From Actinoplanes octamycinicus (GTDB lineage Bacteria; Actinomycetota; Actinomycetes; Mycobacteriales; Micromonosporaceae), in assembly GCF_014205225.1 (NCBI RefSeq), contig NZ_JACHNB010000001.1, forward strand, positions 4,197,501 through 4,261,500: a stretch of DNA of 64,000 nucleotides. Reading direction: 5' to 3'. Of this stretch, positions 19,982 to 36,108 are shown piece by piece. The notes beneath the pieces were generated by a model that did not search any database, had not been told where the DNA came from, and saw only the letters and a program-made list of their open reading frames with translations. The position numbers and the translations under genes are program-made. Numbering within the stretch: the stretch's first letter is position 1; each line of letters begins with the position of its first letter.

Positions 19982-20497
19982 GTGAAACTGGGAAGGCTCA
20001 TCGGCGCAAGTCTGGTGGCGTGCATCGTTGCTGTGGTCGCCGCATGCGGAGAGGACAAAGCATTGCAGCCCACCGAGACGAACACGCAGGCATCTGAACG
20101 TGTGGAGAAGTTGATCCAGGAAGCGTTTGCGCAGTTGCCCCCGGGCAGCAGCCTCAAGCCTGGCATCGATGTGAAGTCTCTGCCGTGTGACGATCCCACC
20201 GATGGCGGCCCCGCAGGTCGCGTCATCGTCGAGAAGCGCTATTCGATTCTCCCGCCGGCTGATGGCGCCTGGCAGGCTGATCAGGTCATCCCCGTGCTGG
20301 CGGCGTTCTGGCAGCAGCAAGGCTACAAGGCCTACTCGGACCAGCGGTCCGACAAGCGCTACCCCGTCTACTCAGTCGAGACACCGGACGGATATCTGGT
20401 GACCGTCCAGGGCTGGGACCGAGAGGATCACCTCGACTACACGCTCGGTGGCGACTCGCCGTGCATCTGGGAGAACGGGACGCCGGACCCGCAGTAG
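19982..20497 (+). CDS. Putative lipoprotein of unknown function
   Basis: This 171-aa protein begins at the GTG at 19982, 14 bases after the hydrolase stop. The signal peptide ends in the lipobox VAAC (about residue 22). The mature part has paired cysteines (SLPCDD and SPCIW) that may form a disulfide, and reads as a compact alpha/beta domain. It has a noticeably lower G+C than its neighbours, matching the end of the preceding gene, so the two may have moved together. No family is recognised. It is probably part of the same operon as the two upstream genes. Confidence 0.75.
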   Translation: MKLGRLIGASLVACIVAVVAACGEDKALQPTETNTQASERVEKLIQEAFAQLPPGSSLKPGIDVKSLPCDDPTDGGPAGRVIVEKRYSILPPADGAWQADQVIPVLAAFWQQQGYKAYSDQRSDKRYPVYSVETPDGYLVTVQGWDREDHLDYTLGGDSPCIWENGTPDPQ

Positions 20498-20528
20498 CGC
20501 GAGCGGGTGCGCGGTAATCTCGCACGCG

Positions 20529-23420
20529 ATGTTGCCGCCGACTGTGCTTGCCGTGCTGGCCGAGCTGGCGCCGGCCGCGGCTGAGCGGACCCTGGACGTG
20601 ACCCGCGGGGCGCAGCCGCTGGTCTGGCTGGAGGTCGCGGAGAAAGCGCCGCGGCAGGCCGCCGTCGAGCGGCTCGCCGCGCTGGACGCGCTGCACCGCG
20701 AGGAGCGGATCCTGTACCGGGGCTGGGGGTTCCTGGCCGGCCAGGCCGAGATCGAGGGCAAGCCGCGGAAGGTCCGGGTGCCGCTGCTCAGCCAGCCGGT
20801 GCACCTGGAGCGGACGCTGCTCGGTTACCGGGTCGTCCCGGCCGGGGACGTCGAGGTGACGCCGCTGGTCGAGGACCGTGAGCTGGCCGCCGCGCTGGAG
20901 GCCGCGCCGGGGCTGGCCGCGCCGGGCTGGCTGGAGGCGCTGGGCAGCCGGGCATGGTTGCAATCGGTCGCGGACGCCACCGGCTTCACGGTCGGCGCGA
21001 TCGTCGGCACGCACCGGGAGATCCCGGCCAGCGGCCTGGTGCTGGTCGCCGCCCCGGCGCTCTTCGTGGTCCGCGACGTCTTCGGCGTCGGTCTCGCGGA
21101 CAGCCTGCGCAGCTGGGCCGGCCGCGACCTGTCCGGCACCGCGCTGGCCGCCGTCTACAGCAGCCCCGAGCCCACCGCCCGGGACCGCGATCAGCCCGGT
21201 GCCGATGCCCGCGGCAGGGCCCTCGATGAGAACCGCGACCAGGGCCGCGACGGCGCGGCGGACGAGGGCGGGGACGACCCGGTGATCTCGCCGCTGCCGC
21301 TGACCGGATCGCAGGCCAGGGTGGTGCGGCGGGCCAGGGCGGCGCCGATCACGGTGGTCTCCGGGCCGCCCGGCAGCGGCAAGAGCCACACGGTCGTGGC
21401 GGCCGCCCTGGAGGTGGTCGACCGCGGCGGGTCGGTGCTGGTGGCGACCCAGTCGCCGCACGCCGCCGAGGTGCTGGCCGGTCTGCTGGCCCGCTATCCG
21501 GGCCCGCCGCCGGTGCTGTTCGGCGACGCGACCGGCCGGGCCGGCCTGGAGGCCGAGCTGACCGCGGGCGCCGATCGAGGGGTCGAGGCATCGCTGATCC
21601 GTTCCGGTCAGGCGCGGGTGCAGGCCGCGGCGTCTTCGGTACGCGAGAAGCGCACCGCCGTGTGCCGCGCGCTGGAGCTGGAGCAGTGCGCCGCGACGCT
21701 CCCGGACTACCAGCCGCTCCTGCCGCGCCTCGCCGCCGAGGTCCCGGGCGCCTTCGACGACACCGTGGATCTCGACGAGGTGCGGGCGCTGCTGGCCGCC
21801 GGCCCGGGCGACGGCTGGTGGTCCCGGTGGCGGGCCCGAGCCGCCCGGCGCAAGGCGTTCCGGCTGCTCGGCGTGAGTGACGCCGCGAGAAGGGACGCCG
21901 CCGTGAGCGAGGCGCTCGCCGCGGCCACCGCGCAGCGTGCCGCTTCCCACCTCGCCGCGACCGGGGGCACCGACCTGGCCGCCGCCTGGTCCGCCCTGCA
22001 CGACGCCGAGCACGACCTGCGCGAGGCGGCCGGCCGGGCGATGCGGGACGCCGCCCGGGGCGCGGACCGCTGGACCCGGGAGGCCCGGCGGGCGGCCGGC
22101 GCGCTGGCCACCGCCCTGCGCGCGGGCCGCAACCGGCGCCGCGAGCTGCTCGCCCGGATGGCCGCCGCCCCGTTGGTCCGCGCGCTGCCGCTGTGGATCG
22201 GCACGGTCGCCGACGTGGAGGACCTGCTGCCGCCCGAGCCCGGCCTGTTCGACCTGGTGGTGATCGACGAGGCGTCGCACGTGGACCAGATCCGGGCCGC
22301 CCCGGTGCTGGCCCGGGCCCGGCGCGCGCTGATCGTCGGCGATCCGCGGCAGTTGCGGTTCGTGTCGTTCGTCAGCGACGTCGACGTCACCCAGGTGCTG
22401 GACCGGCACGGCGCCGACGAGCGGCTCGACGTGCGCCGGGTGAGCAGCTACGATCTGGCCGCGGCGGCCGCCCCGGTGACCTGGCTGGCCGAGCATCACC
22501 GCAGCGTGCCGCATCTGATCGACTTCCCGGCGCGGCGGTTCTACGGCGGCCGGGTGTCGGTGCTGACCCGCACCCCGGCGGCCGACGCGATCGACGCCGT
22601 CGACGTGCGGCACGTGTCCGCCGCCGAGGTGGTCAAGGGCGTGAACCGGGCCGAGGTGACGGCCGCGCTGGCGGCGGTCGAGGAGCTGGCCGCGGCCGGG
22701 CACCGCGGGATCGGCGTGATCAGCCCGTTCCGCGCGCAGGCCGAGGCGCTGGAGGCGGCCCTGGTCGCGGCGGTGCCCGCGGAGCGGATCGAGGAGCTGC
22801 GGCTGCGGGTCGGCACGGTGCACGCGTTCCAGGGCAGCGAGGCCGACGCGGTGGTGGTCTCGCTGGGCCTGGTGGACGGCGACTCGGCGGGCCGGCGGCG
22901 GTTCGTCACCGATCCGCAGCTGTTCACCGTGATGGTCACCCGGGCCCGGCGCCGCTTGGTCGTGCTGACCTCGCTGACCGCGCCGACCGGCCTGCTCCGG
23001 GACTACCTGGCGCACGCCGAGGGCCCGCGCGCCGCCGAGCCGGGCCCGGCGCCGGCCGGCTGGGCCGCCGAGCTGGCCGCCGAACTGGACCGGCTGGACC
23101 TGCCGGTGCAGCCGGGCTACCAGGTCGGGCCGTGGACCGTCGACCTGTGTGTGGGCCCGGTCGGCGTGTTCACCGGGGTGCACCCGGACGGGCCGGCCGC
23201 GCACCTGGAGCGGCAGGGCGCGTTGCACCGGGCCGGCTGGCAGTTGATCGAGGCGTTCCCGAGCCGCTGGCAGGGCGATCCGCGCCGGGCCGCCCTGGAG
23301 ATCGCCGAGGTGGCGGCCGGTCGGATCTGGGACATGGGGTTCAGCGAGACGCCGGGCAGCGGCACGATGTCGGTGAAGGCGCCGCGAGCCGATCGCGCCC
23401 GGCGCTCACCCCGCACCTGA
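20529..23420 (+). CDS. SF1 (DNA2/NAM7-type) helicase with a C-terminal nuclease-like domain
   Basis: This is a 963-aa ATP-dependent helicase. An unfamiliar N-terminal domain (about 1-250) is followed by motif I GPPGSGKSHT (Lys285), motif II VIDEASH (Asp580-Glu581), motif III GDPRQLRF, motif V TVHAFQGSEADAV and motif VI VMVTRARRRLV. Between motifs I and II lies a helical insertion of about 200 residues with many Arg/Ala. The final 110 residues resemble a Vsr/DUF559-type nuclease fold (GPWTVDLCVG, then RAGWQLIEAFPSRW), but the expected acidic/Lys catalytic set is not complete. No defence partner genes are adjacent, so a role in DNA repair or in defence remains open. Confidence 0.85.
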   Translation: MLPPTVLAVLAELAPAAAERTLDVTRGAQPLVWLEVAEKAPRQAAVERLAALDALHREERILYRGWGFLAGQAEIEGKPRKVRVPLLSQPVHLERTLLGYRVVPAGDVEVTPLVEDRELAAALEAAPGLAAPGWLEALGSRAWLQSVADATGFTVGAIVGTHREIPASGLVLVAAPALFVVRDVFGVGLADSLRSWAGRDLSGTALAAVYSSPEPTARDRDQPGADARGRALDENRDQGRDGAADEGGDDPVISPLPLTGSQARVVRRARAAPITVVSGPPGSGKSHTVVAAALEVVDRGGSVLVATQSPHAAEVLAGLLARYPGPPPVLFGDATGRAGLEAELTAGADRGVEASLIRSGQARVQAAASSVREKRTAVCRALELEQCAATLPDYQPLLPRLAAEVPGAFDDTVDLDEVRALLAAGPGDGWWSRWRARAARRKAFRLLGVSDAARRDAAVSEALAAATAQRAASHLAATGGTDLAAAWSALHDAEHDLREAAGRAMRDAARGADRWTREARRAAGALATALRAGRNRRRELLARMAAAPLVRALPLWIGTVADVEDLLPPEPGLFDLVVIDEASHVDQIRAAPVLARARRALIVGDPRQLRFVSFVSDVDVTQVLDRHGADERLDVRRVSSYDLAAAAAPVTWLAEHHRSVPHLIDFPARRFYGGRVSVLTRTPAADAIDAVDVRHVSAAEVVKGVNRAEVTAALAAVEELAAAGHRGIGVISPFRAQAEALEAALVAAVPAERIEELRLRVGTVHAFQGSEADAVVVSLGLVDGDSAGRRRFVTDPQLFTVMVTRARRRLVVLTSLTAPTGLLRDYLAHAEGPRAAEPGPAPAGWAAELAAELDRLDLPVQPGYQVGPWTVDLCVGPVGVFTGVHPDGPAAHLERQGALHRAGWQLIEAFPSRWQGDPRRAALEIAEVAAGRIWDMGFSETPGSGTMSVKAPRADRARRSPRT

Positions 23421-23487
23421 CGCCCGGCTCGGGCACACCATTCGTCGCGCCCATCGGCGCTCCGCACATCTGTCCGGGGAGGACCAG

Positions 23488-24267
23488 ATGGCGAACATCT
23501 TCACGCAGAACACCAGTTCGTTGTCCAGCTTCATCCGTACCGAGGTCGAGTTCGGCGGCCCGGTCGCCAACGGCTCCCGCGGCACCGCGGTGCGCCGCGT
23601 CCAGGAGTGGCTCACCCTGCACGACCACGGCGTGGTGGTGGACGGGATCTTCGGCCCGGCCACCGGCCGCGCGGTCGCCGCCTTCCAGTCCGATCACGGC
23701 CTGGCCACCACCAGCACCGTCGACCAGCAGACCTTCGACCGGCTGGTGGCGCCGATGGTCGGCGTGCTCAAGCAGCGGGTCACCCGGTCGGTCCCGCTCG
23801 CCGAGGCGGTCGTCGAGTACGCCAAGGCCCACCTCGAACCGCACCCGCGCGAGGTCGGTGGCCCGAACAGCGGCCCGTGGGTGCGGCTCTACATGAGCGG
23901 CCGGGAGGGCGAGGCGTTCGCCTGGTGCGCCGGCTTCGTCACCTTCCTGCTCGACCAGGCCGCCCAGTCGCTGAAGGCCGGCAAGCCGATCACCGGCTCG
24001 GTCTCCTGCGACACCCTGGCCGCGCAGGCCACCCAGGCCGGTGTCTTCCTGGCCGGCAGCGAGGCGGCCGGCAAGCTCACCCCGGGCAGCATCTTCCTGG
24101 TCCGCCGGGTGCCCGGCGACTGGACGCACACGGGCGTCGTGACCGAGGTGCACGACAGCACCTTCGACACCATCGAGGGCAACACCAACGACGCCGGGCA
24201 GCGCGAGGGCTACGAGGTCTGCGCCCGGACCCGGTCGTACGACGACAAGGACTTCATCCTCATCTAG
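23488..24267 (+). CDS. Peptidoglycan-binding domain plus CHAP-like amidase, no signal peptide
   Basis: This 259-aa protein has two domains. Residues about 25-90 form a PG_binding_1 repeat (GTAVRRVQEWL, VDGIFGPATGRAVAAFQ). Residues about 105-259 look like a CHAP/NlpC-type cysteine peptidase with Cys147 in AWCAGF, His214 in DWTHTGVV and a polar third residue at EGNTN (about 232). Such enzymes cut peptidoglycan stem peptides or cross-bridges. The ATG at 23488 follows GGGGAGGA, and no signal peptide is visible, which is odd for a wall hydrolase. It starts a tight run of four genes that ends at 27594. Confidence 0.85.
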   Translation: MANIFTQNTSSLSSFIRTEVEFGGPVANGSRGTAVRRVQEWLTLHDHGVVVDGIFGPATGRAVAAFQSDHGLATTSTVDQQTFDRLVAPMVGVLKQRVTRSVPLAEAVVEYAKAHLEPHPREVGGPNSGPWVRLYMSGREGEAFAWCAGFVTFLLDQAAQSLKAGKPITGSVSCDTLAAQATQAGVFLAGSEAAGKLTPGSIFLVRRVPGDWTHTGVVTEVHDSTFDTIEGNTNDAGQREGYEVCARTRSYDDKDFILI

Positions 24268-24276
24268 GGGGACACC

Positions 24277-25746
24277 ATGCCGGATGCCTTCAAGATCCTC
24301 AGAGATCTCGAGATGAAAGCCGTCGGGGTGGATCCGCAGACCCAGAAGATGCAGGAGGGCTACTTCGTGTCCTTCCGCAACGTCGGCCTGCCGATCCGGA
24401 CCGAGGACTACGCCAACCCGTTCAGCCCGGTCGGGGTGAACCTGAACAAGCCGCGACCGGAGACCGCGCCGGCCTCCCCGGCGGACGCCGAGAAGACCGG
24501 CAGCGAGCAGGCGAACATCGACGCCGAGCTGGAGGGGATCACCCGGGCGCAGCGCAGCTACCTGAACACCTTCCTGCTCACCGACGCCAAGCTGCGGATG
24601 AGCAACACCTATCAGGTGATGCCGACCAACCGGTCGATCGCCGACTCCTGGTGGGCGATCATGACGGGCGCCAACGGCATCCCGCCGAAGACCGACATCA
24701 AACCCGAGCTCAAGGCGGCGTACGACAAGGCGCGCGCGTTCCTGATGGACGCCGACGACAACCCGACCGCGAAGTACCAGAAGTACCTGGACTACCGGGA
24801 GAAGTACCGGACGGCGGTGAAGGCGTACAACCGGGCGTACAGCGCCGCGCTGACCGACCCGAAGAAGCTCGGCCGGTTCCCCCAGGAGGGCAAGCTCTAC
24901 CAGGACGACGTGGACTCGGCGTTCGACGAGTGGCAGGGCTTCGGCGCCAAGAGCGAGGTGGAGAAGGCGCTGGCCACGCTGGCCGCGCAGGGCACCGACC
25001 CGGCCATCGCGCTGATCGCCCGGGCCAAGCGTCGCTGGGAGAACAGCCTGCTCAACTTCCCGAGCGTCGGCAACATCCCGTACGTGATCCTGAGCCCGGA
25101 GTCCTGGTGCGTCGCCGACGACGACACCGGCTGGTACGACTACACCAAGACCGACCTGCACAACGAGAGCCACAGCTCGTCGTCGAGCACCGCGATCAAG
25201 GCGGGCGGTGGCCTGAACCTGGGCTTCTGGAGTGTCGGCGGCTCGTTCTCCAACGAGAAGACCCAGAGCAACCTGAACATCCAGGGCGACTCCCTGGACA
25301 TCCGGTTCAAGTACACGGTGGTCGACATCAACCGGGTCGGTGTCGACACCTCGCTGCTCTCGCTGAAGAACTGGTTCCTGTTCGGTGACTACCCGAAGCA
25401 CACCATCTCCCGGGGCACCATGTCCCAGGAGCTGCCGGCGACCGGCCAGGAGGTGTTCCTGCCGTCGATCGTGACCAGCCTGATCCTGGTCAAGGACTTC
25501 GAGATCGGCTGGACGAACTGGAAGAAGGAGTGGGCCGACAAGACGTCGTCGACCTCGGCCAGCGCGTCGGTCGGCTACGCCTGCTTCGCCCTCAACGGCT
25601 CGTACGAGCACCGCAGCCAGAAGCACGACTTCGAGGCCGACTCCAGCGGCGAGCGGCTGAAGAGCCCCGGCATCCAGCTGGTCGGCTACGTGTCGGAGAT
25701 CCTGCCGGCCTCGCCGGCGCACGACTCCTCGGAGTTCATGCAGTAA
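24277..25746 (+). CDS. Conserved protein of unknown function with Ser-rich beta-hairpin and shared C-terminal domain
   Basis: This 489-aa protein starts nine bases after the amidase gene. The N-terminal half is helical and charged, including a long helix with YQKYLDYREKYRTAVKAY. Then come a Ser-rich run and a Gly-rich amphipathic beta segment (about 300-325, GGGLNLGFWSVGG) that could be a membrane-inserting hairpin. The C-terminal domain (about 335-480) has the order: a VVDINR strand, LKNWFL, an LPSIVTSLILVKDFEI strand, and a final PGIQLVGYVSEILP strand. The same order recurs in the next gene, so the two look paralogous there. I recall similar uncharacterised proteins in other bacteria and fungi, but name no function. 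No signal peptide is seen. Confidence 0.75.
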   Translation: MPDAFKILRDLEMKAVGVDPQTQKMQEGYFVSFRNVGLPIRTEDYANPFSPVGVNLNKPRPETAPASPADAEKTGSEQANIDAELEGITRAQRSYLNTFLLTDAKLRMSNTYQVMPTNRSIADSWWAIMTGANGIPPKTDIKPELKAAYDKARAFLMDADDNPTAKYQKYLDYREKYRTAVKAYNRAYSAALTDPKKLGRFPQEGKLYQDDVDSAFDEWQGFGAKSEVEKALATLAAQGTDPAIALIARAKRRWENSLLNFPSVGNIPYVILSPESWCVADDDTGWYDYTKTDLHNESHSSSSSTAIKAGGGLNLGFWSVGGSFSNEKTQSNLNIQGDSLDIRFKYTVVDINRVGVDTSLLSLKNWFLFGDYPKHTISRGTMSQELPATGQEVFLPSIVTSLILVKDFEIGWTNWKKEWADKTSSTSASASVGYACFALNGSYEHRSQKHDFEADSSGERLKSPGIQLVGYVSEILPASPAHDSSEFMQ

Positions 25747-25823
25747 TCGACCACCGGGCCGCGGGGCGACCTCCCTCCGCGGCCCGGTCCCTCTGTCTGG
25801 CCGATCTCCGGAAGGACATCGCC

Positions 25824-27209
25824 GTGGGTCTGCTCACCCAATCACTGCTCAAGCCCGTCCAGGACTGGGCCAAAGCCGAGTTCGGCACCCCGCCCGGCGC
25901 GCAGGTGGCGTTCCGCTTCGACCGGTTCGGCGTCACCCTGACCGAGGCGGACTTCATGGTGCCCGGCCACCCGGAGCTGGGCATCTCGCCGGAGATGGCG
26001 ATCGAGCGGTTCTCCGATCTGGTCAACCGGGTGCCGATCGGGGTGGAGGACGGGGACGACGACGTCACGTTCTCCGAGATCGACATCGACACCACGTACT
26101 TCCACCGGCTGGTCGACGCGGCCGAGCCGTACCTGCCGGCGAGTCTGCCCGGTCCCGCCCGGGAACACCGGATCACCGCTGTCAGCGTGCTCAAGGCGGA
26201 GGCGACTGCGGTCTGGGAGAAGCACTCGGTCGCCTCGGTGACCGGACAGGGCGATTCGGTCCGGCTCTCCACCCCGGCTCCGATCAACTGGTACGACTTG
26301 GGCAACTCCGCCGGGTGGCAGTCGCGCTCGTTCCCCATCGCCGGCTCCGACCAGGCCCCGGCGGTGAAGACGTTCCAATGGCGGCTGGCGCCGGACGACG
26401 CGCAGATCGGCAAGGCGGTCCAGCTGCCCGCGGCGGAGGTGCGCAAGCTGCCCACCGCTGACGTGCTGCGCCGCGCCGCCCAGCTGCAACGTGGCGATCC
26501 GGTCGAGCCGGTGCAGTTCACCGCGGTTCCCGGCGCCGTGGCGAAACCCGTCCTGCGTCCGCTCCCGGCGGACCTGATCAAGGTGTCGATCGCCGACCGG
26601 ATGCTGGCGAAACGGCGGCTGCTGGAGAACGCGCCGGTGAAGGCGGCCACCACCAGTGCGCAGACGACGGTCGCGTTCGACGCGTGCCTGGTCCGTATCG
26701 ACCGGCCCTGGCTGTTCTGGCCCTTCCTGACCGATGTCACCTGGGAAGCCGTCGGGCTCAGCCGGGGCGGTCTCAGCGCGGCGAATGCGATCGGTTCGCT
26801 GGGCTGGCTGCCGACCGGCCTGCTCGCGATCCGCAACTTCACGATCACCAGCAACTGGTCGGCGCAGGACGTGGAGGCGTCGGCCACCGCGACCAGCTTC
26901 GGGCCGTTCGCGGTCGCCGGCAAGATCGCCAACGGGGTGCTCTCCGGGCCGCCGGGCAGCATCCAGGTGATCGGCTGGCTGCTCCAGCAGCTGCCGACCC
27001 TGCCGCCCAACGACGAGGTGCCCGCGGCGCCGGCGCCCACCCCGGCGCCCGTCCCGAAGCGGCAGTACACGGTGGCCAAAGGGGACACCCTGTGGAAGAT
27101 CGCCCGGATGATGTACGGCGACGGGAAGCGGTGGAAGAAGATCGCCGACGCCAACCACATCACCGACCCGAACAAGATCAAGGTCGGGCAGCGACTGGTC
27201 ATCCCGTGA
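25824..27209 (+). CDS. Protein of unknown function with shared C-terminal-type domain and a LysM module
   Basis: This is a 461-aa protein. The GTG at 25824 is chosen because GGAAGGA lies 7 bases upstream. No signal peptide is seen. The first 270 residues are unfamiliar. Residues about 285-395 repeat the strand order of the preceding protein: VRIDRPWLFW, an LPTGLLAIRNFTI strand, a SATATSFGPF strand and PGSIQVIGWLLQQLP. An Ala/Pro linker (about 396-411) leads to a complete LysM domain (about 413-461: YTVAKGDTLWKIARMMYGD, DPNKIKVGQRLVIP). LysM binds N-acetylglucosamine polymers, so this gene product can tie the module to cell wall or chitin. Confidence 0.78.
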   Translation: MGLLTQSLLKPVQDWAKAEFGTPPGAQVAFRFDRFGVTLTEADFMVPGHPELGISPEMAIERFSDLVNRVPIGVEDGDDDVTFSEIDIDTTYFHRLVDAAEPYLPASLPGPAREHRITAVSVLKAEATAVWEKHSVASVTGQGDSVRLSTPAPINWYDLGNSAGWQSRSFPIAGSDQAPAVKTFQWRLAPDDAQIGKAVQLPAAEVRKLPTADVLRRAAQLQRGDPVEPVQFTAVPGAVAKPVLRPLPADLIKVSIADRMLAKRRLLENAPVKAATTSAQTTVAFDACLVRIDRPWLFWPFLTDVTWEAVGLSRGGLSAANAIGSLGWLPTGLLAIRNFTITSNWSAQDVEASATATSFGPFAVAGKIANGVLSGPPGSIQVIGWLLQQLPTLPPNDEVPAAPAPTPAPVPKRQYTVAKGDTLWKIARMMYGDGKRWKKIADANHITDPNKIKVGQRLVIP

Positions 27210-27219
27210 AGGGGCGAAC

Positions 27220-27594
27220 GTGGACGACATGGACAAGCTCCTCGACTTCGACCGGCGGCTGAGCGGGCTGGTGGCGAAGCCGGCCGGCTGGGACGACGAG
27301 TTCCGGCAACTGGTGAGCTCCGGGTTCACCCGCCGGTCGTGGGACCCGGAGACGCCGGTCCGGGGTGTCGACGAGGTGGTCGAGGAGATCGAGGCGGGTC
27401 CCGGCCGCCCGGTGCGGGTCTCCGCCGAGCACGGCTGGCTGCACAGCAAGCTCGGCGTGGTCACCACCACCTGCACCTGGGACGGGATCAGCGACGACGA
27501 CGACGTGCAGGTGGTCCGGGTCTACACCCGGTACACCGAGACGTGGCGCTGCGAGTACTGGCAGGAGACCCGCGCCCACCGCCCGGCGGTCTGA
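27220..27594 (+). CDS. Small NTF2/SnoaL-like protein
   Basis: This 124-aa protein begins at the GTG ten bases after the LysM gene. An N-terminal helix (LLDFDRRLSGL), a central helix (VDEVVEEIEAG), and C-terminal strands ending in TRYTETWRCEYWQET suggest an NTF2-like cone fold. Such folds can be enzymes or simple ligand-binding domains. It is the last gene before a strong hairpin and probably belongs to the same transcript as the upstream cassette. The fold call is tentative. Confidence 0.6.
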   Translation: MDDMDKLLDFDRRLSGLVAKPAGWDDEFRQLVSSGFTRRSWDPETPVRGVDEVVEEIEAGPGRPVRVSAEHGWLHSKLGVVTTTCTWDGISDDDDVQVVRVYTRYTETWRCEYWQETRAHRPAV

Positions 27595-27612
27595 CCGCGA
27601 CGGACAGCCGGA

Positions 27613-27642
27613 CCCGCACGACGCGCGTAGCGGTCGTGCGGG
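27613..27642. terminator. Hairpin terminator of the four-gene cassette
   Basis: A perfect 10-bp stem (27613-27622 with 27633-27642) with a 10-base loop lies 19 bases after the last stop of the cassette. A G-run follows it instead of a T tract. Confidence 0.75.
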
Positions 27643-27746
27643 GGCCGGGCCTCGCGGGCCGACTGGCACGGTGCGCCGAGTCGTACCGTGAAAATCGCAC
27701 CACGGTCCGCATCGAAAAGCGAGCCGGACCGCATCGCGGCCTGGCG

Positions 27747-27840
27747 GGATGCGCTGACCGGTCGAGGCATCCGGTTCAGGCGCGGTCCGGGTCGGATGCG
27801 CTGACCGGTCGAGGCATCCGGATCAGGGGCGGTGCGGGCC
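27747..27840. repeat. Two tandem 47-bp units, each an imperfect hairpin, at the kinase 3' end
   Basis: Two units at 27747-27793 and 27794-27840 differ at only a handful of positions. Each starts with GGATGC and contains GCATCC 14 bases later, with the palindrome GACCGGTC between, so each can fold into a stem-loop. The second unit overlaps the last codons and stop of the FGGY kinase (minus strand). It probably acts as a tandem terminator for that operon and may have arisen by duplication of the gene's end. Confidence 0.75.
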
Positions 27841-29430
27841 GCCGGTCGCGCGGTGCAGCCGCTTGTAGACCGGCGCCAGCCGCTTGTGCAGCTGCGTGTA
27901 GACCTCGTAGATGTCGCTGTAGACCGCGCGGTCCGGGCCCGGCTCGAAGACCTCGTCGTTGCGGGCCAGGTCCGGGATGTCGGAGAAGGCGATCATGCCG
28001 GTGCCGACCGCGCCGATCCAGCCGGCGCCCCGCGCGTTCACCTGCACCGGGTTCGCGTCGCGGCGGATCTCGATGTCCAGCACGTCGGCGAAGATCTGGC
28101 ACCACGAGCGGGACCGGGCCGCGCCGCCGGTGATCACCATCGACGACACCGGCGCGCCGAGGAAGCGGTCCACCGCCTTGGCCATCCACCGGGTGTTCAG
28201 CGCGACCCCCTCGAACACCGCCCGCAGCAGGTCGGACCGGGTCGTCTCCAGGGAGATGTTCAGGAAGCCGGCGCGCAGATGCGGGTCGTCGACCGGCGCC
28301 CGCTCGCCGTAGAGCCACGGCATGTAGAGCACGCCGTCCGCGCCGGCCGGCACGCTCGGGATGATCTTGTCGAAGGCGTCGAAGATGGTGCCCTCGTCCC
28401 GGCTGATGTGCCCGGCGGCGAGCAGCGGGTCGTCGTACTCCACGATCTTGTCGCGCAGCCAGGTGAGGTTCGCGCCGGCGGTGGCCTGCAGCGCGGTCAT
28501 CAGGTAGCGGTCCGGCAGCGCGCACGGGATGGACGCGATCCCGCTGCCCACGTCGGTCTTCTTGGCCGGCACGTGCGCCGCGATCCACGACGAGGTGCCC
28601 AGGTAGAGGTGCGGCTCGTGGTCCCGCACAGTGCCGGCGCCGATCGCCGCCGCGGTGTTGTCGATCGCCCCGGCCACCACCCGGATCGAGGCGGGGAGGC
28701 CGAGGTGATCGGCAGCGCTGGGGGCGAGCGTGCCGATCACCTCGGTGCATGTCACGATCGGCGGGAACTTGTCCCGGTCGATCCCGCTGGCCGCGACCAG
28801 CGACGGCGCGTACCGGATGGCGGTCGCCTTGCGGTTGTCGGTGACCCACGAGGTGAGGATCGAGTCGACGGTGGCCACCGTCCGCCCGGTCAGCTTCAGG
28901 TTGATCCAGTCCAGGACGTTCAGGAAGGTCTTCGTCCGCGCGTACACGTCCGGCATCTCGTCGCGCACCAGCAGCATGTGCGCGGCCGGATCCTTGCCGG
29001 TGATCGACGGCATCCCCCCGGTCAGCCGCAGCCACCGGGCGATTCTCACGATCGAGATGCCGTCGTACGACGGGAAGCCGCCGAACTGGCGACGCAGGTG
29101 CGGCGCTCCGCGCATGTCCAGCCAGCTGATGCACGGGGTGAGCGGCTCACCCGCGGCGTCGACGGCGATCGTCCCCTCGCCCTGGGTCGACGAGCAGATC
29201 GTGGTGACCGCGCGCAGGTGCGCCGGGTGGTCCCGGCCGAGGTCGGCGACCACCTCGGCGAGGGCATCCCACCAGGCGAGCGGGTCCTGCTCGGCGCCGC
29301 CGCCGGGCAGCACCCGCAGCGGCACCGGGCGCTCGGCCCAGCCGGTCACCGTGCCGTCCGCGGCGACCAGGGCCGCCTTCATCCCGGAGGTGCCCAGGTC
29401 GATCGCCAGCACCTGCGGCGCGATCGCCAT
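27823..29430 (-). CDS. FGGY-family carbohydrate kinase (xylulokinase-like)
   Basis: This 535-aa ATP-dependent sugar or polyol kinase has the N-terminal phosphate loop DLGTSGMKAAL and a second domain with catalytic-base Asp257 in GAIDNTAAAIG. The nucleotide-binding TGGAARS and a C-terminal NARGAGWIGAV segment are also present. The closest family feel is xylulokinase, but the true substrate is unknown. The start codon abuts the stop of the aldolase-aminotransferase fusion, so the two are co-transcribed. The kinase may make the phosphorylated ketose that the aldolase cleaves. Confidence 0.9.
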   Translation of the reverse strand: MAIAPQVLAIDLGTSGMKAALVAADGTVTGWAERPVPLRVLPGGGAEQDPLAWWDALAEVVADLGRDHPAHLRAVTTICSSTQGEGTIAVDAAGEPLTPCISWLDMRGAPHLRRQFGGFPSYDGISIVRIARWLRLTGGMPSITGKDPAAHMLLVRDEMPDVYARTKTFLNVLDWINLKLTGRTVATVDSILTSWVTDNRKATAIRYAPSLVAASGIDRDKFPPIVTCTEVIGTLAPSAADHLGLPASIRVVAGAIDNTAAAIGAGTVRDHEPHLYLGTSSWIAAHVPAKKTDVGSGIASIPCALPDRYLMTALQATAGANLTWLRDKIVEYDDPLLAAGHISRDEGTIFDAFDKIIPSVPAGADGVLYMPWLYGERAPVDDPHLRAGFLNISLETTRSDLLRAVFEGVALNTRWMAKAVDRFLGAPVSSMVITGGAARSRSWCQIFADVLDIEIRRDANPVQVNARGAGWIGAVGTGMIAFSDIPDLARNDEVFEPGPDRAVYSDIYEVYTQLHKRLAPVYKRLHRATGGPHRP

Positions 29431-31644
29431 CTAGACCCCCTCGACCAGGGCGAAGACCTGGTCGAACCGGGCGAGCGCGTCGTCGATGACCTCGTCGGTG
29501 TCGGCCAGCGAGGTGTACATCCGGGAGCCGGCCAGGGTGATGATGCCGTGCGCCGCGTACGCCGCGCCCATCTGTTCCATCAGCGTCTTGCGCGCCTTGT
29601 TCTCCTTGAGCAGCTTGATCGGGCTGCGCATGTCGAGCAGCATCACGCCGCTGCACTCCAGGTGCACGATCGACCCCTGGTTGTACGCCACGTAGGGCAG
29701 CCCGTACTTGTCGATCAGCCGCTGCAGGCCCCGGGTGAGCCGGTCCCCGGCGCGGCCGGCGATCACCGGCGCGTTGGTCCGGGCCATCTCCTGGATCGCG
29801 AAGTACCCGGCCGCGCAGGACAGCGGGTTCGCCGACAGGGTGCCGCCGACCTGGATGTGCGCGCCGCTCTTGCCGTCCAGGCCGGAGCCGAACACGCTCA
29901 TGATGTCGGCCCGCCCGCCGACCCCGCCGGCCATCGGGTAGCCGCCGGAGACGGCCTTGCCGAAGACGGTCAGGTCCGGGGTGACCCCGAAGTAGCCGGC
30001 CGCGCCGCCCATCCCGGTGCGGAACCCGGTGACCACCTCGTCGAAGATCAGCATCGCGCCGAACTCGGTGCACAGCTTGCGCACCGCCGCGTTGTAGTCG
30101 TGCGGGACCGGCCGGGTGCCGGACTCCGGCCCGAACGGCTCGACGATCACCGCGGCGGTGCCGCCGCGCAGCCGGTTCTCGATCAGCTTGCGCTTGAGCG
30201 TGCCCAGGTCGTGCGGGAACGCCTCGCGGGTGCGGCCGGTGGCGCCCCACGGGATGCCCTTGGCGTTCATCCGGAAGCTGCCCGGCACCCGCAGCCCGTA
30301 GACCACGGTGTCGGACCAGCCGTGGTACGCGCCGCCGACCTTGATCACCATCTTCTTGCCGGTCTTCGCCCGGGCCGCCCGGACCGCCGCCATCACGGCC
30401 TCGGTGCCGGAGCCCAGCGACCGGTACATCTCGATGTGCGGCATGTACTTGTTGATGATCTCGGCGAGCTTCAGCTCGTATTCGTGGAACAGGCCGGTGA
30501 CCGGGCCGCTCTCCTTGATCACCGCGGCCACCCGCTCGTTCACCGGGCCGTAGTTGCTGCCCAGGATGGTCGGGCCGCCGGCCTGCAGGAAGTCGATGTA
30601 GACGTTGCCGTCCCGGTCGGTCAGGTGCGCGCCCTCGGCCTTGTCGATGGCGAGCGGGAACGGGTAGTTGAAGGCCAGGTTGTGCTGGACGCCGCCGGGG
30701 ATCCGCTTCCTGGCCCGCTCGGTGATCTCCTTGCTGGCCCGGCACTTGGTCTCGAAGTAGTTCAGCGTGTCCAGCAGGGCGTCGTGCCGCAGCCCGCGCA
30801 CCGGCTGGGCGACCAGGGCCTTGAGCCGGCGCATGGTGTCCGGGACGTCGAGGTACTCGCTGATCATGTAGCCGTGGTCTTCTTCCGGCGCCGTGTCCGG
30901 GACTTCGGACACGCTGGGAAGCGGCTCGTCGGAAGGGACCCGGATCGGTTCGACCGCGTCCACGATCTGCGAGGCGATCCGCTTCTCGTCCTTGCGAAGC
31001 TTGCCGAAAGCGATCTCCCGGATCGCCGCCGGAATCGTGTAGACCTTCCCGGCCTCCGAGGTCAGCGCCATCAGATAGGCGATCGACACCTTCTCCAGCA
31101 GCGCCATGGTGAACACCGCCCGCGACGGGTCGGTGCCCAGCGCCACCACGCCGTGGTTCGCGATGATGAACGCGTTGTCCCCGCTCGCCACCTTCTTCTG
31201 CACGTTCTTGGCGAGGAAGCCGGTGCCGGACGGCGCGTAGTCGATGATCGCCACCTCCTTGCCGAGGAAGCGCACCTGCTCGTCGGTGAGCGCCGGGATC
31301 GGCTTGCGGAGGAAGGCGAGTGCGGAGGCGTACGGCTGGTGGGTGTGCACGATCGCGTTGACGTCGTGCCGCTCGCGGTAGATGTTCGCGTGCATCCCGC
31401 ACTCGATCGACGGCACCAGGCCGCCGGCGCCGTCCTCGTCCGGGACGTGCTTGCCCCGGAAGTCGACGATGCAGACGTCCTCGACGCGCATCTTGTCGTA
31501 GTCGTAGTTGCTCGGCGTGACGGCGTACAGCTCGTGGCCGGGGATCCGGACCGAGACGTTGCCCTCGGTCGCCTTCAGGTATCCACGGTCGAGCATCGTC
31601 CGGCACATGTCGACCACGTGCTGGCGGGACAGTCGGTGTTTCAC
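29431..31644 (-). CDS. Class II aldolase fused to class III (GSA-type) aminotransferase
   Basis: This is one 737-aa chain joining two enzymes. Residues about 1-225 are a class II aldolase/adducin domain with zinc/catalytic residues Glu81, His100, His102 and His164, whose spacing mirrors L-fuculose-1-phosphate aldolase. After a linker (about 226-315) comes a PLP-dependent class III aminotransferase resembling glutamate-1-semialdehyde aminomutase, with IFDEVVTGFR and Schiff-base Lys563 in FGKAVSGG. Both active sites look intact. The GTG at 31644 is preferred; the upstream open frame lies antisense to the PucR gene. A likely scheme is cleavage of a sugar phosphate to an aldehyde or ketone that is then transaminated. 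The substrate is unknown. Confidence 0.88.
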   Translation of the reverse strand: MKHRLSRQHVVDMCRTMLDRGYLKATEGNVSVRIPGHELYAVTPSNYDYDKMRVEDVCIVDFRGKHVPDEDGAGGLVPSIECGMHANIYRERHDVNAIVHTHQPYASALAFLRKPIPALTDEQVRFLGKEVAIIDYAPSGTGFLAKNVQKKVASGDNAFIIANHGVVALGTDPSRAVFTMALLEKVSIAYLMALTSEAGKVYTIPAAIREIAFGKLRKDEKRIASQIVDAVEPIRVPSDEPLPSVSEVPDTAPEEDHGYMISEYLDVPDTMRRLKALVAQPVRGLRHDALLDTLNYFETKCRASKEITERARKRIPGGVQHNLAFNYPFPLAIDKAEGAHLTDRDGNVYIDFLQAGGPTILGSNYGPVNERVAAVIKESGPVTGLFHEYELKLAEIINKYMPHIEMYRSLGSGTEAVMAAVRAARAKTGKKMVIKVGGAYHGWSDTVVYGLRVPGSFRMNAKGIPWGATGRTREAFPHDLGTLKRKLIENRLRGGTAAVIVEPFGPESGTRPVPHDYNAAVRKLCTEFGAMLIFDEVVTGFRTGMGGAAGYFGVTPDLTVFGKAVSGGYPMAGGVGGRADIMSVFGSGLDGKSGAHIQVGGTLSANPLSCAAGYFAIQEMARTNAPVIAGRAGDRLTRGLQRLIDKYGLPYVAYNQGSIVHLECSGVMLLDMRSPIKLLKENKARKTLMEQMGAAYAAHGIITLAGSRMYTSLADTDEVIDDALARFDQVFALVEGV

Positions 31645-31770
31645 GGCGGGTCCGATCCTGGTGCGTCGGGTGTGACCGACACCATCGTCGCCCCGGCCCG
31701 GGGAGGAGGCACCGTGTCCCGGCCAGCAATCTGCACCCCGGTTGTTATCACCGGGTGACAAAATTCGGCG

Positions 31771-32937
31771 ATGACGACCCCGTGGCGGCGCGTGCCGGCT
31801 GACCTGGCGACCGCCATGCGGCCCCGCCTGCCGGACGCCGTCCCGGCCATCGCCGACGCGGTCACCGCGGCGAACCCGGCGCTCGCGGATACCTCGAAAG
31901 CCAAATTCGACCGCGATCTGCGTACGGCCGTGCAGGTCGCCATCGAGGGTTTTCTCGACCTGGCCGGCACCGACGAGCCGGCCCTGCCCCCACGGATCCG
32001 GGAGGTGTTCGTCGCCCTGGGCGCCGCCGAGGCCCGCGAGAACCGGGGCCCGGAGCTGCTCCTCGGCGCCCTGCGCACGGCCGCGCGGGTGCTGCTGCGG
32101 ACCGCCTCCCAGTCCCTCGCCGAGTCCCGCCCGGTCACCGTCGACGAGATCATCGACCTGTCCGACGCGACCAGCGCGTTCGTCGACGAGCTCGCCGCGG
32201 CCTGTACCGACGGGCTGGCCCGGCAGCTGCGCGAGCAGGCCGGCGAGGGCGACCGGCGCCGCCGCCGGGCCGCCGACCTGCTGCTGCGCGGGGGCGTGCC
32301 GGCCGACGTGGTCCGCGAGGCGGTCACCGCGATCGGCTGGCCGGCCCCGGACCGGATCGTCCCGGTGCTGCTGCCGCCGGACCAGGCCCGGGACGCCCGG
32401 TTCCGGTTCGCCGCGGACGGCGTGGTCGCCGAGCGCGCCGGGGACGCCGTGCTGCTGCTCCGCTCCGGCCCGCGCGCCGAACGGTCCGCGCTGGCCGAGG
32501 CCCTGGCCGGCCGCGACGCCGTGGTCGGCCCGGTGCTCTCCTGGACCGAGGTGCCCGAGGCGGTCCGGCTCGCCGAGCGGGCCGCCGAGCTGATCGGCAC
32601 CGGGCCGGCGCCGGTCTTCGTCGAGGACCACTTCGCCGCGCTGGCGCTGCGTGGCGAGCCGGGCGCGCTGGCCGCGCTCGCCGCCCGCCGGCTGGCCCCG
32701 CTCGGCGGGCTGCGCCCCGGCCAGCGCGACCAGCTGCTCGACACGCTGGCCTGCTGGCTGCGGCACTGGGGTTCGCGCGGCGCGGTCGCCGCCGAGCTCT
32801 ACGTCCACCCGCAGACGGTCAGCTACCGGCTGAACCGGCTGCGCGACCTGCTCGGCCCGGACCTGGACGACCCGGCCGCCCGGTTCGAGCTGCTGCTGGT
32901 GCTCAGTCAGCGGTCGTACGCCACCAGGGCGCTGTAG
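31771..32937 (+). CDS. PucR-family transcriptional regulator
   Basis: This 388-aa activator-type protein has a helical N-terminal sensory region (about 1-165), a GGDEF-like degenerate middle domain and a C-terminal PucR HTH (about 325-380: LDTLACWLRHWGSRGAVAAEL, VHPQTVSYRLNRLRDLL). It is divergent from the aldolase fusion gene, with 126 bases between starts, so it is the likely regulator of that operon. Its 3' end overlaps the next, convergent gene by 31 bases. Confidence 0.9.
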   Translation: MTTPWRRVPADLATAMRPRLPDAVPAIADAVTAANPALADTSKAKFDRDLRTAVQVAIEGFLDLAGTDEPALPPRIREVFVALGAAEARENRGPELLLGALRTAARVLLRTASQSLAESRPVTVDEIIDLSDATSAFVDELAAACTDGLARQLREQAGEGDRRRRRAADLLLRGGVPADVVREAVTAIGWPAPDRIVPVLLPPDQARDARFRFAADGVVAERAGDAVLLLRSGPRAERSALAEALAGRDAVVGPVLSWTEVPEAVRLAERAAELIGTGPAPVFVEDHFAALALRGEPGALAALAARRLAPLGGLRPGQRDQLLDTLACWLRHWGSRGAVAAELYVHPQTVSYRLNRLRDLLGPDLDDPAARFELLLVLSQRSYATRAL

Positions 32938-33377
32938 AGCAGGGCGGAGACGGCCGCCAGCCCGAGCCCGCAGATCCACGGCCCGGCGGCCAGCAGCCGG
33001 GCCGTCTCCGGCTGCCCGGTCGCGTAGCAGATCCAGGCGGCGATCATCGACACCGTGCTCAGCACCGGCAACAGCGGCACCAGCCAGGCCAGGTAGAGCC
33101 GCCACGGCGCGGGCGACGGCACCTGGTCGCTGAGGACCATCCAGGCCACCAGCCCGGCGCCGGCGACCAGCACGGTCAGCCCGGCCAGGGTGCTCAGCAC
33201 CAGCCAGCCGGCCCCGCCGGGCGGCCCGTCCAGCACCCCGCTCAGACTCGGCACCCCGGCCCCGGCCCAGCGCAGGATCACCCAGACCAGGGCGAGCGGC
33301 GCCGCGGTCAGCACCAGGATGACCACCCCGCACCCCAGCCCGGTCGCACACCCGAGCGCCTGCCGGCGCGCGCTCAC
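32907..33377 (-). CDS. Small integral membrane protein
   Basis: This 156-aa protein has four predicted transmembrane helices (about 12-38, 56-82, 92-115, 122-150) and almost no soluble part. The GTG at 33377 begins MSARRQALG. It is convergent with and overlaps the PucR gene by 31 bases, and it is divergent from the P450. No family is recognised. Confidence 0.7.
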   Translation of the reverse strand: MSARRQALGCATGLGCGVVILVLTAAPLALVWVILRWAGAGVPSLSGVLDGPPGGAGWLVLSTLAGLTVLVAGAGLVAWMVLSDQVPSPAPWRLYLAWLVPLLPVLSTVSMIAAWICYATGQPETARLLAAGPWICGLGLAAVSALLYSALVAYDR

Positions 33378-33502
33378 CGGTGGCTTCCGTCCCGCATGCC
33401 GCCGACGCTACCAAGCCACCCGGCCCCGCAGCGGCATCCCGCTCGGGTGACGGCCGGTGGCCGGCCCGGGCGCTGGCCGGGTACGGCCATGATGACGGGG
33501 TG

Positions 33503-34672
33503 ATGGACACCGCCTCGCGTCATGAGTTCCGGGTGCTTGCCGCCGCGCACCCGAGGTTGCCGATGCTGCTGACCGCCGGCCGGCTGGCCCGGCGGCTGCG
33601 GAAGGTGCCGCGGATCGGCTGGGTGACCGCCGACCCGCTGACCGCGCGGCGGATCCTCAACGATCCGGAGCACTTCACGCTGCTCGGCGAGGGCGGCGTC
33701 GGGCACCTGTGGGCGCAGGTGCTCGGCGACTGGGTCTACGAGATCTTCGACGGGCCCGGGCACCACCAGCTGCGGTCCCGGACCCGCGACCTGTTCACCG
33801 ACGAGAGCGCCCGGCGGCTCACCGACCGGGTGATCGGCCCGCGGCTGGCGCGGGCCGGGGCGGAGCTGCGCGCCGGGCGCAGCGTCGACGTCGCCGACCT
33901 GGCCCGGGTCCTGGTCGGCCGGATCGTCGCCGACCTGCTGCTGTTGCCGGTGGCCGACCGCGACGAGTCGTACCGGGAGATCTTCGCCACCGGCGAGGAA
34001 CTCGCCGCCCTGGCCCTCGGGACCACCGCGAGCACCCACCTCCCGCCGGAGACGATCGGGCGGGCCAAGGAGATCGTCGGGCGGCTGACCGCCAACGTGG
34101 CCGGCTCCTGGCGGACCGCGCCCGCGGAGACCGTCCTCGGCCGCTGCCGTGACCTGGGGCTGACCCAGCAGCAGGCGGAGGGGCTGGCCACCCTGCTGAT
34201 GGTGGCCGGGACCGAGACCGCGGCCAGCGCGATGGCCCGGACCGTGGCGATCCTGCACGACACCGGCGCGCAGCACCGGCTCCGCGCCGAGCCGGACCTG
34301 CTGGCCGACGCGGTCCGCGAGGGCCTGCGGGTGACCACGCCGGCCCCGCTGATCGGCCGGGCGGTCGCCGCCGACGTCACCATCGACGGCCGCCGGCTGC
34401 GTGCCGGCGAGCGGGTGCTGATGCTGACCTGGACCGCGAACAACGCGGCCGGCGGCTTCGACCTGGACCGCGGCTACCTCCCGGAGCAGCGGCAGCTCTG
34501 GTTCGGCGCGGGCCGCCACCTCTGCCTGGGCGCGCCGGTCGCCCGCGCCGAGATCACCGGTCTGCTCCGCACCCTGCTCGACACCGGCCGCCCGTGGGCG
34601 ATCCGCGGCCGCCGCTACCGCCGCGAGGTGCTGATCCCGTCCTACGACGCGCTGCCGGTCACCCTGGTCTAG
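33503..34672 (+). CDS. Cytochrome P450
   Basis: This 389-aa soluble bacterial P450 has I-helix AGTETAAS, K-helix ExxR in EGLRVTTPAP, and the heme loop FGAGRHLCLG with ligand Cys341. The start at 33503 is ATG; an in-frame GTG sits one codon upstream. The C-terminal region is slightly short but complete. No ferredoxin or ferredoxin reductase gene lies next to it, so redox partners must come from elsewhere. The substrate is unknown. It ends at a strong hairpin shared with the cellulase gene. Confidence 0.92.
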   Translation: MDTASRHEFRVLAAAHPRLPMLLTAGRLARRLRKVPRIGWVTADPLTARRILNDPEHFTLLGEGGVGHLWAQVLGDWVYEIFDGPGHHQLRSRTRDLFTDESARRLTDRVIGPRLARAGAELRAGRSVDVADLARVLVGRIVADLLLLPVADRDESYREIFATGEELAALALGTTASTHLPPETIGRAKEIVGRLTANVAGSWRTAPAETVLGRCRDLGLTQQQAEGLATLLMVAGTETAASAMARTVAILHDTGAQHRLRAEPDLLADAVREGLRVTTPAPLIGRAVAADVTIDGRRLRAGERVLMLTWTANNAAGGFDLDRGYLPEQRQLWFGAGRHLCLGAPVARAEITGLLRTLLDTGRPWAIRGRRYRREVLIPSYDALPVTLV

Positions 34673-34728: not shown

Positions 34729-36108
34729 TCAAGCGGCGGTGCAGGTCACCGCCGGGGTGGTGACGGCGCCGCTGCCGATCAGGCCGAACTCGGCGGTGGC
34801 GCCGGCGCCCAGGGTGCCGTTCCACGACACGTTGCGGACCGAGACCGCGGAGCCGCTGGTGGTCAGCGTCCCGTTCCACACCTGGCTGATCGCCTGGCCG
34901 GTGCCCAGCGTCCAGGAGACGGTCCAGCCGCTGATCGCCTTGCCGGCGGTCACCGTGACGTTCGCCTGGTAGCCGCCGGACCACGAGCTGGTCACCTTGA
35001 ACGCCGCCGTGCACCCGGCCCCGGACGGTACCGACGGCGACGAGGAGGACGGGGGCGGGTCGGACGGCATCGACGACGAGGCCGACGGCGACGGCGACGA
35101 GGGGGTCGGCGAGCTGGTCACCGGCGGGTTCGGCGCCCCGTTGGCCAGGCTGTAGGCCAGGTCGGGCTGGAACGAGCCGGCCGCGTACCGGCAGCCGTCC
35201 GCCTCGCCCGGCGGTTTCACCCAGAGGAAGGCGTCCACGTTGCCGTCGTTGGTGGTGGTGGTCGGGTAGTTCCCGATCCGCCGGTCGGTGTTGTCGTCGC
35301 CGCACCAGTCACCGGCCGCTCCGCCGTTCCGGCTGGTGTCCACCACCTGGCGCTTGCCGGTGATGCCGCGCCCGTTCAGCGCGTTGATGACCGCCCGGCC
35401 GAACGCCGTCTCGCTCGACGTCGGGTTGAAGTTGGAGACGTTGGTGTAGAACCCGTCGGCGTCCGCCACGCCCGCCGCGGCCAGCCGGTTGGCCTGCTCG
35501 GTGGCGCTGTTCCAGGTGGAGTGCCCGCCGTCCAGGTAGACCTTGGCGTTCGGGTTGCCCGCCTTCAGGGTGCGGGTGGCGGTGGCCAGCGTGTTGTCCC
35601 GGGCGGTGATCTCACTCGCGCTCAGGCAGGTCTGCAGCGCGATCGAGTCCGGTTCCAGGATCACGATCACGGTCCGGTTGCCCAGCGAGCGGGCGATCGA
35701 GGAGATCCAGGTCTGGTACTGGGTGAGGTCCGGCGCGCCGCCGGCGCTGGCGCCGCCGCAGTCGCGGTTGGGGATGCCGTACGCGGTCAGCACCGGGATC
35801 TGCCCGGCCGCGTTGGCCGCCCCGACGTAGCCGGACACCTCGGAGCCGATGGTGTTCAGGTTGAAGTTGCTGAGCCAGCGCGAGGCCGGCTGACTGGCGA
35901 TCTTGTCGCGGATCGCCGCGGTCCGGTAGTCGTTGGGGTTGGCGGCCACCCACCGGGCGACGGCGGTGCCGTCCGCTTCCCGGTAGAGGGTGCCGCTGAT
36001 CGTGCCGGCTTCGGCGGTACCGGCCGCGAGGAGCACGGCGCCGGTCGCCACGGTGGCGCCGGCGGCGGCCGCCGCCAGCCATCTGCGGTGCGGGGAAACG
36101 GGGGACAT
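34729..36108 (-). CDS. Secreted GH6 cellulase with CBM2
   Basis: This 459-aa secreted beta-1,4-glucanase (endoglucanase or cellobiohydrolase) has a signal peptide to about residue 34 (TAEAG) and a GH6 domain at about 35-325. The domain carries both family signatures: TAYGIPNRDCGG with proton donor Asp116, and VIVILEPDS with Asp154. A Ser/Pro linker (about 330-363) joins a CBM2 cellulose-binding domain (about 365-459) with flanking Cys366 and a near-terminal Cys and conserved Trp in SSWSGGYQANVTV. A perfect CebR-type palindrome lies 30 bases upstream of the start, so induction by cello-oligosaccharides is expected. Confidence 0.95.
   Translation of the reverse strand: MSPVSPHRRWLAAAAAGATVATGAVLLAAGTAEAGTISGTLYREADGTAVARWVAANPNDYRTAAIRDKIASQPASRWLSNFNLNTIGSEVSGYVGAANAAGQIPVLTAYGIPNRDCGGASAGGAPDLTQYQTWISSIARSLGNRTVIVILEPDSIALQTCLSASEITARDNTLATATRTLKAGNPNAKVYLDGGHSTWNSATEQANRLAAAGVADADGFYTNVSNFNPTSSETAFGRAVINALNGRGITGKRQVVDTSRNGGAAGDWCGDDNTDRRIGNYPTTTTNDGNVDAFLWVKPPGEADGCRYAAGSFQPDLAYSLANGAPNPPVTSSPTPSSPSPSASSSMPSDPPPSSSSPSVPSGAGCTAAFKVTSSWSGGYQANVTVTAGKAISGWTVSWTLGTGQAISQVWNGTLTTSGSAVSVRNVSWNGTLGAGATAEFGLIGSGAVTTPAVTCTAA

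Follow-up and report, generated by a model that had tools for sequence, protein, structure and literature searches.

A mobile four-gene cassette of Actinoplanes octamycinicus joins a signal-less wall amidase to a paralogous protein pair that may act on membranes

A stretch of Actinoplanes octamycinicus DNA 64,000 nucleotides long (the window, part of a 10.28-Mb genome assembled as a single contig) holds four genes, G1 to G4, in a tight run on the plus strand. The gaps between G1 and G2, G2 and G3, and G3 and G4 are 9, 77 and 10 nt. G1 encodes a cell wall amidase, G2 and G3 a pair of paralogous proteins, and G4 a small protein. The genes and their surroundings are as follows.

20448 to 23420, plus strand: helicase-like AAA gene, left flank, outside the cassette
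23488 to 24267, plus strand: G1, 259-aa amidase with PG_binding_1 and CHAP domains, no signal peptide seen
24277 to 25746, plus strand: G2, 489 aa, first member of the tandem paralogous pair
25288 to 25728, plus strand: C-terminal beta domain of G2 (residues 338-484), common to G3 by profile-profile alignment
25824 to 27209, plus strand: G3, 461 aa, GTG start, second of the pair; residues 415-461 at its C terminus form a LysM module
26658 to 27041, plus strand: the shared beta domain in G3 (residues 279-406), by profile-profile alignment with G2
27220 to 27594, plus strand: G4, 124-aa protein without family assignment
about 27608 to 27648, plus strand: strong hairpin 3' of G4
27823 to 29430, minus strand: FGGY carbohydrate kinase, right flank, outside the cassette

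An earlier interpretation, made by a model from the DNA letters and called here the sequence-only reading, had proposed that these genes form one cassette, and their distribution in the genus bears this out. Orthologues of G1, G2, G3 and G4 each occur in the same 3 of 67 genomes (G000, G169 and G177), with cut-offs of E <= 1e-5 for G2, E <= 1e-15 for G1 and G3 (24 candidates scored per genome for G3) and E <= 1e-3 for G4. With a wider G2 profile the sole addition is a distant relative of 900 aa, in G194. In all three carriers the cassette sits between the helicase-like gene and the FGGY kinase gene. The flanks were compared at helicase places L063-L085, which include 19 cassette-free genomes with the helicase. 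In two of these, G179 and G137 (loci L069 and L080), the helicase match is separated from the kinase match by about 70 and 60 nt, without a cassette in the gap, and in the other 17 there is no kinase match within the fetched flank. The identical set of carriers, together with the abutting flanks in cassette-free genomes, indicates that the four genes were gained or lost together. The cassette is one unit, and it is mobile.

Beyond the genus, the G2 family is thinly but widely spread. A search returned 280 homologues, the best 120 of which are 53-80% identical to G2, its own entry aside; the nearest named relative of both G2 (80%) and G3 (72%) is Actinoplanes ianthinogenes. The G2 matches listed include Actinoplanes, Streptomyces, Ktedonobacter and Arthrobacter, and a search with distant G2 members gave 66 homologues. 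A single scan of genome contigs found four G2 loci, in Actinomycetota, Chloroflexota and Bacteroidota, and a plasmid search added two alphaproteobacterial matches. The family is rare in each sample taken, with 3/396 at the level of the phylum, 10/394 at that of the class and 5/300 at that of the family, G000 being included each time. The G2 of a Neorhizobium plasmid (L012) is 67% identical to that of an actinobacterial assembly (L051, 78% complete, on a 6-kb contig), which hints either at a (recent) transfer across phyla or at a misbinned contig. The loci discussed below come from limited samples and partly from single searches.

G2 and G3 had been thought paralogous on the strength of strands that they share in the same order, and profile comparison agrees. 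In hhalign, a G2 profile of 137 sequences aligns with a G3 profile of 19 sequences over 118 columns at a probability of 99.3% and E 4.2e-20. The alignment pairs G2 residues 338-484 with G3 residues 279-406, and the V-x-I-x-R, LP...F-x-I and PG-x-IQ-x-x-G(Y/W) strands all fall inside it. The window G3 matches the G2 profile at E 2.2e-12, and none of 1000 shuffles of G3 reached E 10. Upstream of the shared domain, the N-terminal part of window-like G3s matches the G2 profile weakly and in the same order, and the partners at two distant loci are unmistakably paralogues over their full length (N-terminal part: L018 E 1.4e-35, L049 E 5e-31), so that the paralogy extends beyond the strands that had been noticed. 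By these alignments, G2 and G3 are paralogues.

Family libraries have little to say about the pair. G2 has no match in NCBIfam or PADLOC and none among PDB sequences by phmmer at E <= 10, with two sub-threshold matches in Pfam and weak ones in PHROGs. Searching the PDB with family profiles gave chance-level matches only. The one clear assignment is the C-terminal LysM of G3 (Pfam, E 4.3e-15). PADLOC, which covers known anti-phage defence systems, matched neither G1-G4 nor four relatives at E <= 0.1. A W-x-G-F-G motif after the long helix of many G2s was considered as a type VII secretion signal and dropped: others carry W-x-S-F-G, and the motif occurs in phyla that are not known to have that secretion system.

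Two departures from the two-gene arrangement were seen among relatives. Between the enzyme gene and G2, L003 (9119-10330, about 10025-10252) and L005 (9396-9902) each have a short open reading frame (ORF) that matches only the helical hairpin of G2 (E 1e-18 and 1e-13). A G2-type hairpin is thus able to stand alone, perhaps as an inhibitor or assembly partner. L052 (6397-9276) and L053 (9085-11787) encode single proteins of 959 and 900 aa with the same kind of C-terminal domain. The smaller ORF beside each is, by eye and with no Pfam match, CHAP-like and HExxH metallopeptidase-like respectively.

Neighbourhoods were compared at 20 G2-family loci: the window, L003-L006, L012, L013, L017-L021 and L046-L053. 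In 17 of the 20 (the exceptions being L013, L052 and L053), G2 is followed on the same strand by a G3-like gene, and these pair loci span Actinomycetota, Chloroflexota, Bacteroidota and Pseudomonadota. A hydrolase or peptidase gene adjoins the pair in 12 of the 17, and these enzymes belong to at least seven Pfam classes.

Window, L020, L021 and L003: CHAP with PG_binding_1
L004: PG_binding_1, the N-terminal part without a Pfam match
L005 (Leifsonia): PG_binding_1 with an M15-like motif seen by eye only
L006 (metagenome-assembled genome of Bacteroidota): VanY/M15 peptidase and C70 papain-like protease
L018: Trypsin_2 (Pfam)
L047: subtilase with PG_binding_1 (Pfam)
L048: GH25 (Pfam)
L049: PG_binding_1 with Phage_lysozyme2 (Pfam)
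L046: SLT/lysozyme-like with PG_binding_1

By Pfam the enzyme is a murein hydrolase in 8 of these 12 loci and a protease in L018 and L047, with L004 and L005 left unclassified by Pfam. It is a separate gene in all 12. In six loci (the window, L020, L021, L005, L049 and L050) LysM or PG_binding_1 is part of the G3-like partner, and in L017 a LysM lies on a separate ORF directly after the partner. The wall-binding modules that had been read in G1 (PG_binding_1) and G3 (LysM) are real, and modules that bind or cut the wall accompany the pair across phyla. The sequence-only reading would have been refuted by homologues that never co-occur with the amidase and LysM genes; they do co-occur. Genes outside annotated plasmid records are our own ORF picks, and at least three relevant ORFs were missed at first (in L046, L003 and L005). 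Since the L046 enzyme was among those missed, L012, L017, L019 and L051, where no enzyme was seen, may hide small genes too.

The enzyme changes while the pair remains. In a tree of 18 G2 proteins, those of L047, L048, L049 and L017 form one clade (100/100; 47-67% identical), and their neighbours are, in that order, subtilase with PG_binding_1, GH25, PG_binding_1 with Phage_lysozyme2, and none seen. Likewise, the G2 of L003 (CHAP) is sister to that of L005 (M15-like by eye). L013 and L018 sit on long branches, and their placement is uncertain. Different enzymes beside related G2s indicate that the pair is constant and the enzyme is exchanged.

Three genes beside these pairs are of note. In L006, the gene for the C70 papain-fold protease (5635-6444), which is AvrRpt2-like, lies between the M15 peptidase and the pair. 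A KAP-family P-loop NTPase is encoded directly 3' of the pair in the Leifsonia locus (L005, 12925-15585). Directly after the pair in L050 (3013-3408) is a 131-aa protein with a hydrophobic Gly/Ala-rich stretch, which could be a small membrane-active partner.

None of the cassette proteins shows an export signal. This claim of the sequence-only reading holds by a hydropathy measure alone, the highest Kyte-Doolittle score of any 11-residue segment within residues 1-40, applied in place of a dedicated predictor: G1-G4 reach maxima of 0.39-1.05, and two L013 proteins with evident signal peptides, used as positive controls, score 2.95 and 3.16. By the same measure no signal peptide is evident in 15 neighbouring enzymes (-0.40 to 1.85), of which 13 are from pair loci and two lie beside L052 and L053. 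The G2 and G3 proteins scanned have N-terminal maxima of up to 1.99. The window cassette encodes no transmembrane helix (best 19-residue Kyte-Doolittle mean 1.47), and thus no holin of the usual kind.

Wall modules are confined to the cassettes at these loci. PG-binding and LysM profiles, run over L013 and the 17 pair loci (the window at its full 64 kb), detected 10 and 6 domains, 15 of them within cassettes. The sole domain outside the set boundaries lay 35 nt beyond the boundary of L046 and, found blind, was the L046 enzyme; there was none elsewhere in the 289 kb outside the cassette boundaries of the 18 loci. Because the profiles were built from cassette copies, only the absence outside and the blind L046 match are informative.

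A structural model of G2 built from 137 sequences (pLDDT 74.7, pTM 0.68) has an N-terminal part, a long helical hairpin (residues 165-222) and, at the C terminus, a beta domain in which two regions are rich in Ser and Gly. Its beta strands run through residues 341-353, 397-411 and 461-475, with short strands near 317-333 and 431-452. An earlier model from 28 close relatives (pLDDT 47.5) was discarded. The Ser- then Gly-rich composition that the sequence-only reading had described is seen in the family alignment, with Ser, Thr and Gly making up 44% of residues 294-335 and 39% of residues 421-452 as against 23% overall. Hints of membrane activity come from two sides. First, 10 of 73 family members touch the Porin_4 profile at E <= 0.1, the best at 5.6e-4. 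Second, the weak Foldseek matches of the model include two gasdermins of bacteria (E 0.26 and 0.31), one of an animal (0.77) and a long protein resembling the cholesterol-dependent cytolysins (CDC; 1.4). None of the fold matches is significant, and they stand among clearly unrelated weak ones.

The simplest account of a wall hydrolase and wall modules that lack an export signal, with a changing enzyme and a constant pair, is a two-part device that makes a membrane passable for the hydrolase, or is released with it. We therefore favour, tentatively and with less than even confidence, a reading in which G2 and G3 act on a membrane, probably by forming pores, together with a signal-less hydrolase that can be exchanged, much as in a holin-endolysin pair or a two-component pore former, the whole being a mobile module that breaches membrane and wall. 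This functional reading draws on gene context. In it, the constant paralogous pair would assemble together, and the Ser/Gly-rich beta-hairpins of both C-terminal domains would insert into a membrane. The hydrolase encoded beside the pair, which has no signal peptide, would cross the membrane through the assembly of the pair or act with it, and would cut the wall. The wall modules on G1 and on G3 (LysM in the window, LysM or PG_binding_1 in some other partners) would hold the parts on peptidoglycan. The target membrane could belong to the producer, in programmed lysis or export, or to a competitor, once lysis has set the parts free.

Several results weigh against this proposal. Some concern the fold. 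Residues 293-312 of G2, which lie within the first Ser/Gly region, have pLDDT < 50 in the model. A fold search of the kind that the sequence-only reading called for, run with Foldseek, gave 0 matches in the PDB at E <= 0.001. Viral models also gave 0 at that cut-off, the best being an ssRNA-phage maturation protein (E 1.6e-3, TM-score 0.09), and the VIA matches shown are generic helical hairpins whose rows cover the helical hairpin of G2 only. The amphipathic beta alternation of the Ser/Gly hairpins does not exceed that of shuffled profiles, so the composition of the segment described earlier stands and its amphipathic character does not. Given the weak fold matches and the negative alternation test, we infer membrane insertion rather than observe it, and the pore former of the sequence-only reading keeps only weak fold and porin profile matches in its favour. 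Other points concern the neighbourhoods. L012, L019 and L051 lack both a visible hydrolase and a wall module. L013 has G2 beside an OmpA protein that bears a signal peptide, with no G3 detected. The proteases of L018 and L047, and one of the two enzymes of L006, would be needless in a module purely for wall lysis.

The cassette may instead be a weapon that works from outside in. Its parts would be freed by lysis of the producer, the wall modules would dock on a competitor, the enzyme would open the envelope and the pair would permeabilise the membrane, with G4 providing immunity. Enzyme exchange within one clade and a patchy, mobile distribution resemble antagonistic effectors, and none of the four proteins diverges as fast as G4 (about 60% identity). 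Immunity proteins often diverge fast. There is a precedent in the two-component CDC-like (CDCL) toxins of Bacteroidota, a known case of antibacterial pore formers that are paralogous and adjacent (PMC11169675). The cassette resembles them in its adjacent pair, in which one partner differs in size or extension, and in its mobility; by analogy only, an antibacterial role is proposed. It differs in its wall hydrolase neighbour, in having no signal peptide, whereas the CDCL pairs of that study were chosen for theirs (PMC11169675), and in matching no profile of CDC or the membrane attack complex/perforin family (MACPF); any relation of fold is conjectural. No such profile was found in Pfam at E <= 1 for the window G2 or G3, nor among 25 families listed for 73 relatives. 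The cassette also lacks a release gene, and G4 is confined to three genomes of the genus and was found by phmmer at no other locus searched, its label as an NTF2-like protein being unsupported by family matches. We consider this version unlikely, if possible.

A module for lysis of, or export from, the producing cell has about the same limited likelihood. The pair would act as a holin-like step that gives a signal-less, endolysin-like enzyme access to the wall, either in programmed lysis or to release cytosolic cargo. Many of the enzymes are laid out like phage endolysins (PG_binding_1 with CHAP or lysozyme; GH25; M15), and a signal peptide is not evident in them. They parallel Type 10 secretion systems (T10SS), where a murein hydrolase that lacks a signal peptide depends on a holin (PMC9527704). 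Like holin-endolysin systems and the T10SS, the cassette has a murein hydrolase without a signal peptide (by hydropathy only) beside a putative membrane-permeabilising part, and the class of hydrolase varies. Unlike them, it has in place of a holin with transmembrane helices two soluble-looking paralogues, mostly of 400-600 aa, one of them sometimes with a wall-binding tail. The protease neighbours and the LysM on the pair itself are also atypical of such systems.

Equally improbable in our judgement is a non-toxic assembly, associated with the wall or intracellular, in which G2 and G3 would be a scaffold, particle or polymer-binding complex that organises wall-remodelling enzymes. This agrees with the fold searches, in which no known pore former was matched significantly, and with the negative beta-moment result, and LysM, PG_binding_1 and the neighbouring OmpA protein fit anchoring. 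The sparse, mobile distribution and the exchange of the enzyme, proteases included, suit a housekeeping scaffold poorly. No result points to the role in development that had been suggested earlier. A remnant of a phage or contractile injection system, with a tail or baseplate lysin and a LysM protein, is very improbable: G1 and the LysM of G3 match endolysin or tail LysM families in PHROGs and some neighbours elsewhere are lysozyme-like, but 50,697 phage records yielded nothing that matches G2, a single pattern scan over viral contigs turned up no relative, and no tail gene is recognised among G1-G4.

Two further systems bear comparison with the membrane-breaching module that we favour. Bacterial gasdermins are likewise signal-less proteins with peptidases for operon neighbours, and two of their structures are among the weak fold matches (E 0.26-0.31, non-significant). 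The cassette differs in that the neighbour is by Pfam a murein hydrolase in 8 of the 12 loci with an enzyme. Polymorphic toxin systems share a constant part with exchangeable enzymes and, in the window clade only, a small, fast-evolving end gene. Their C-terminal toxin domain fusion has no counterpart in the cassette, where the enzyme is a separate gene and the immunity function of G4 is only putative.

It is tempting to speculate further that the pair represents a superfamily of tandem two-component beta-hairpin pore formers, borne by mobile cassettes in at least four phyla, that carries an adjacent signal-less hydrolase or protease across a membrane independently of phage holins. We regard this extension as doubtful. 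If it were true, it would provide a non-phage route across the membrane for folded, signal-less wall hydrolases and proteases, and the two-part family behind it carries no name in the libraries searched. It would be relevant to the exit of signal-less proteins from cells and to competition in soil. Among the papers listed in our literature searches none describes such a cassette, and its small size (three or four genes) makes it directly testable.

The enzyme of the window cassette is assigned by Pfam to PG_binding_1 (E 2.4e-11) and CHAP (E 5.5e-6). Residues C147, H214 and E230/N232 of G1 are invariant across four aligned orthologues, and we take them to have the catalytic roles of their counterparts in CHAP enzymes. 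G4 is the least conserved of the four genes, its identity of about 60% to two congeners comparing with 92-96% for G1. The NTF2-like fold once suggested for it found no backing: there is no match in Pfam, PHROGs or NCBIfam, and a PDB search gave a chance-level match only. It may be an immunity or accessory protein.

The strong hairpin that had been seen at the end of the cassette is present, and the 129-nt stretch that contains it folds with z = -1.85; it was not called as a T-tailed terminator. A sigma-70 promoter scan of 23300-27900 and an Rfam scan of 22500-28500 found nothing. Between the cassette and the kinase (27740-27830) lies a 44-nt direct repeat in two copies, 47 nt apart and 89% identical, that could mark an insertion edge. 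Adjoining the FGGY kinase is an unusual fusion on the minus strand (29431-33510), a single chain with a class II aldolase domain and, after it, a class III aminotransferase domain; its true start is probably well within the ORF. Further along, also on the minus strand (34729-36108), is a GH6 cellulase with a CBM2 domain.

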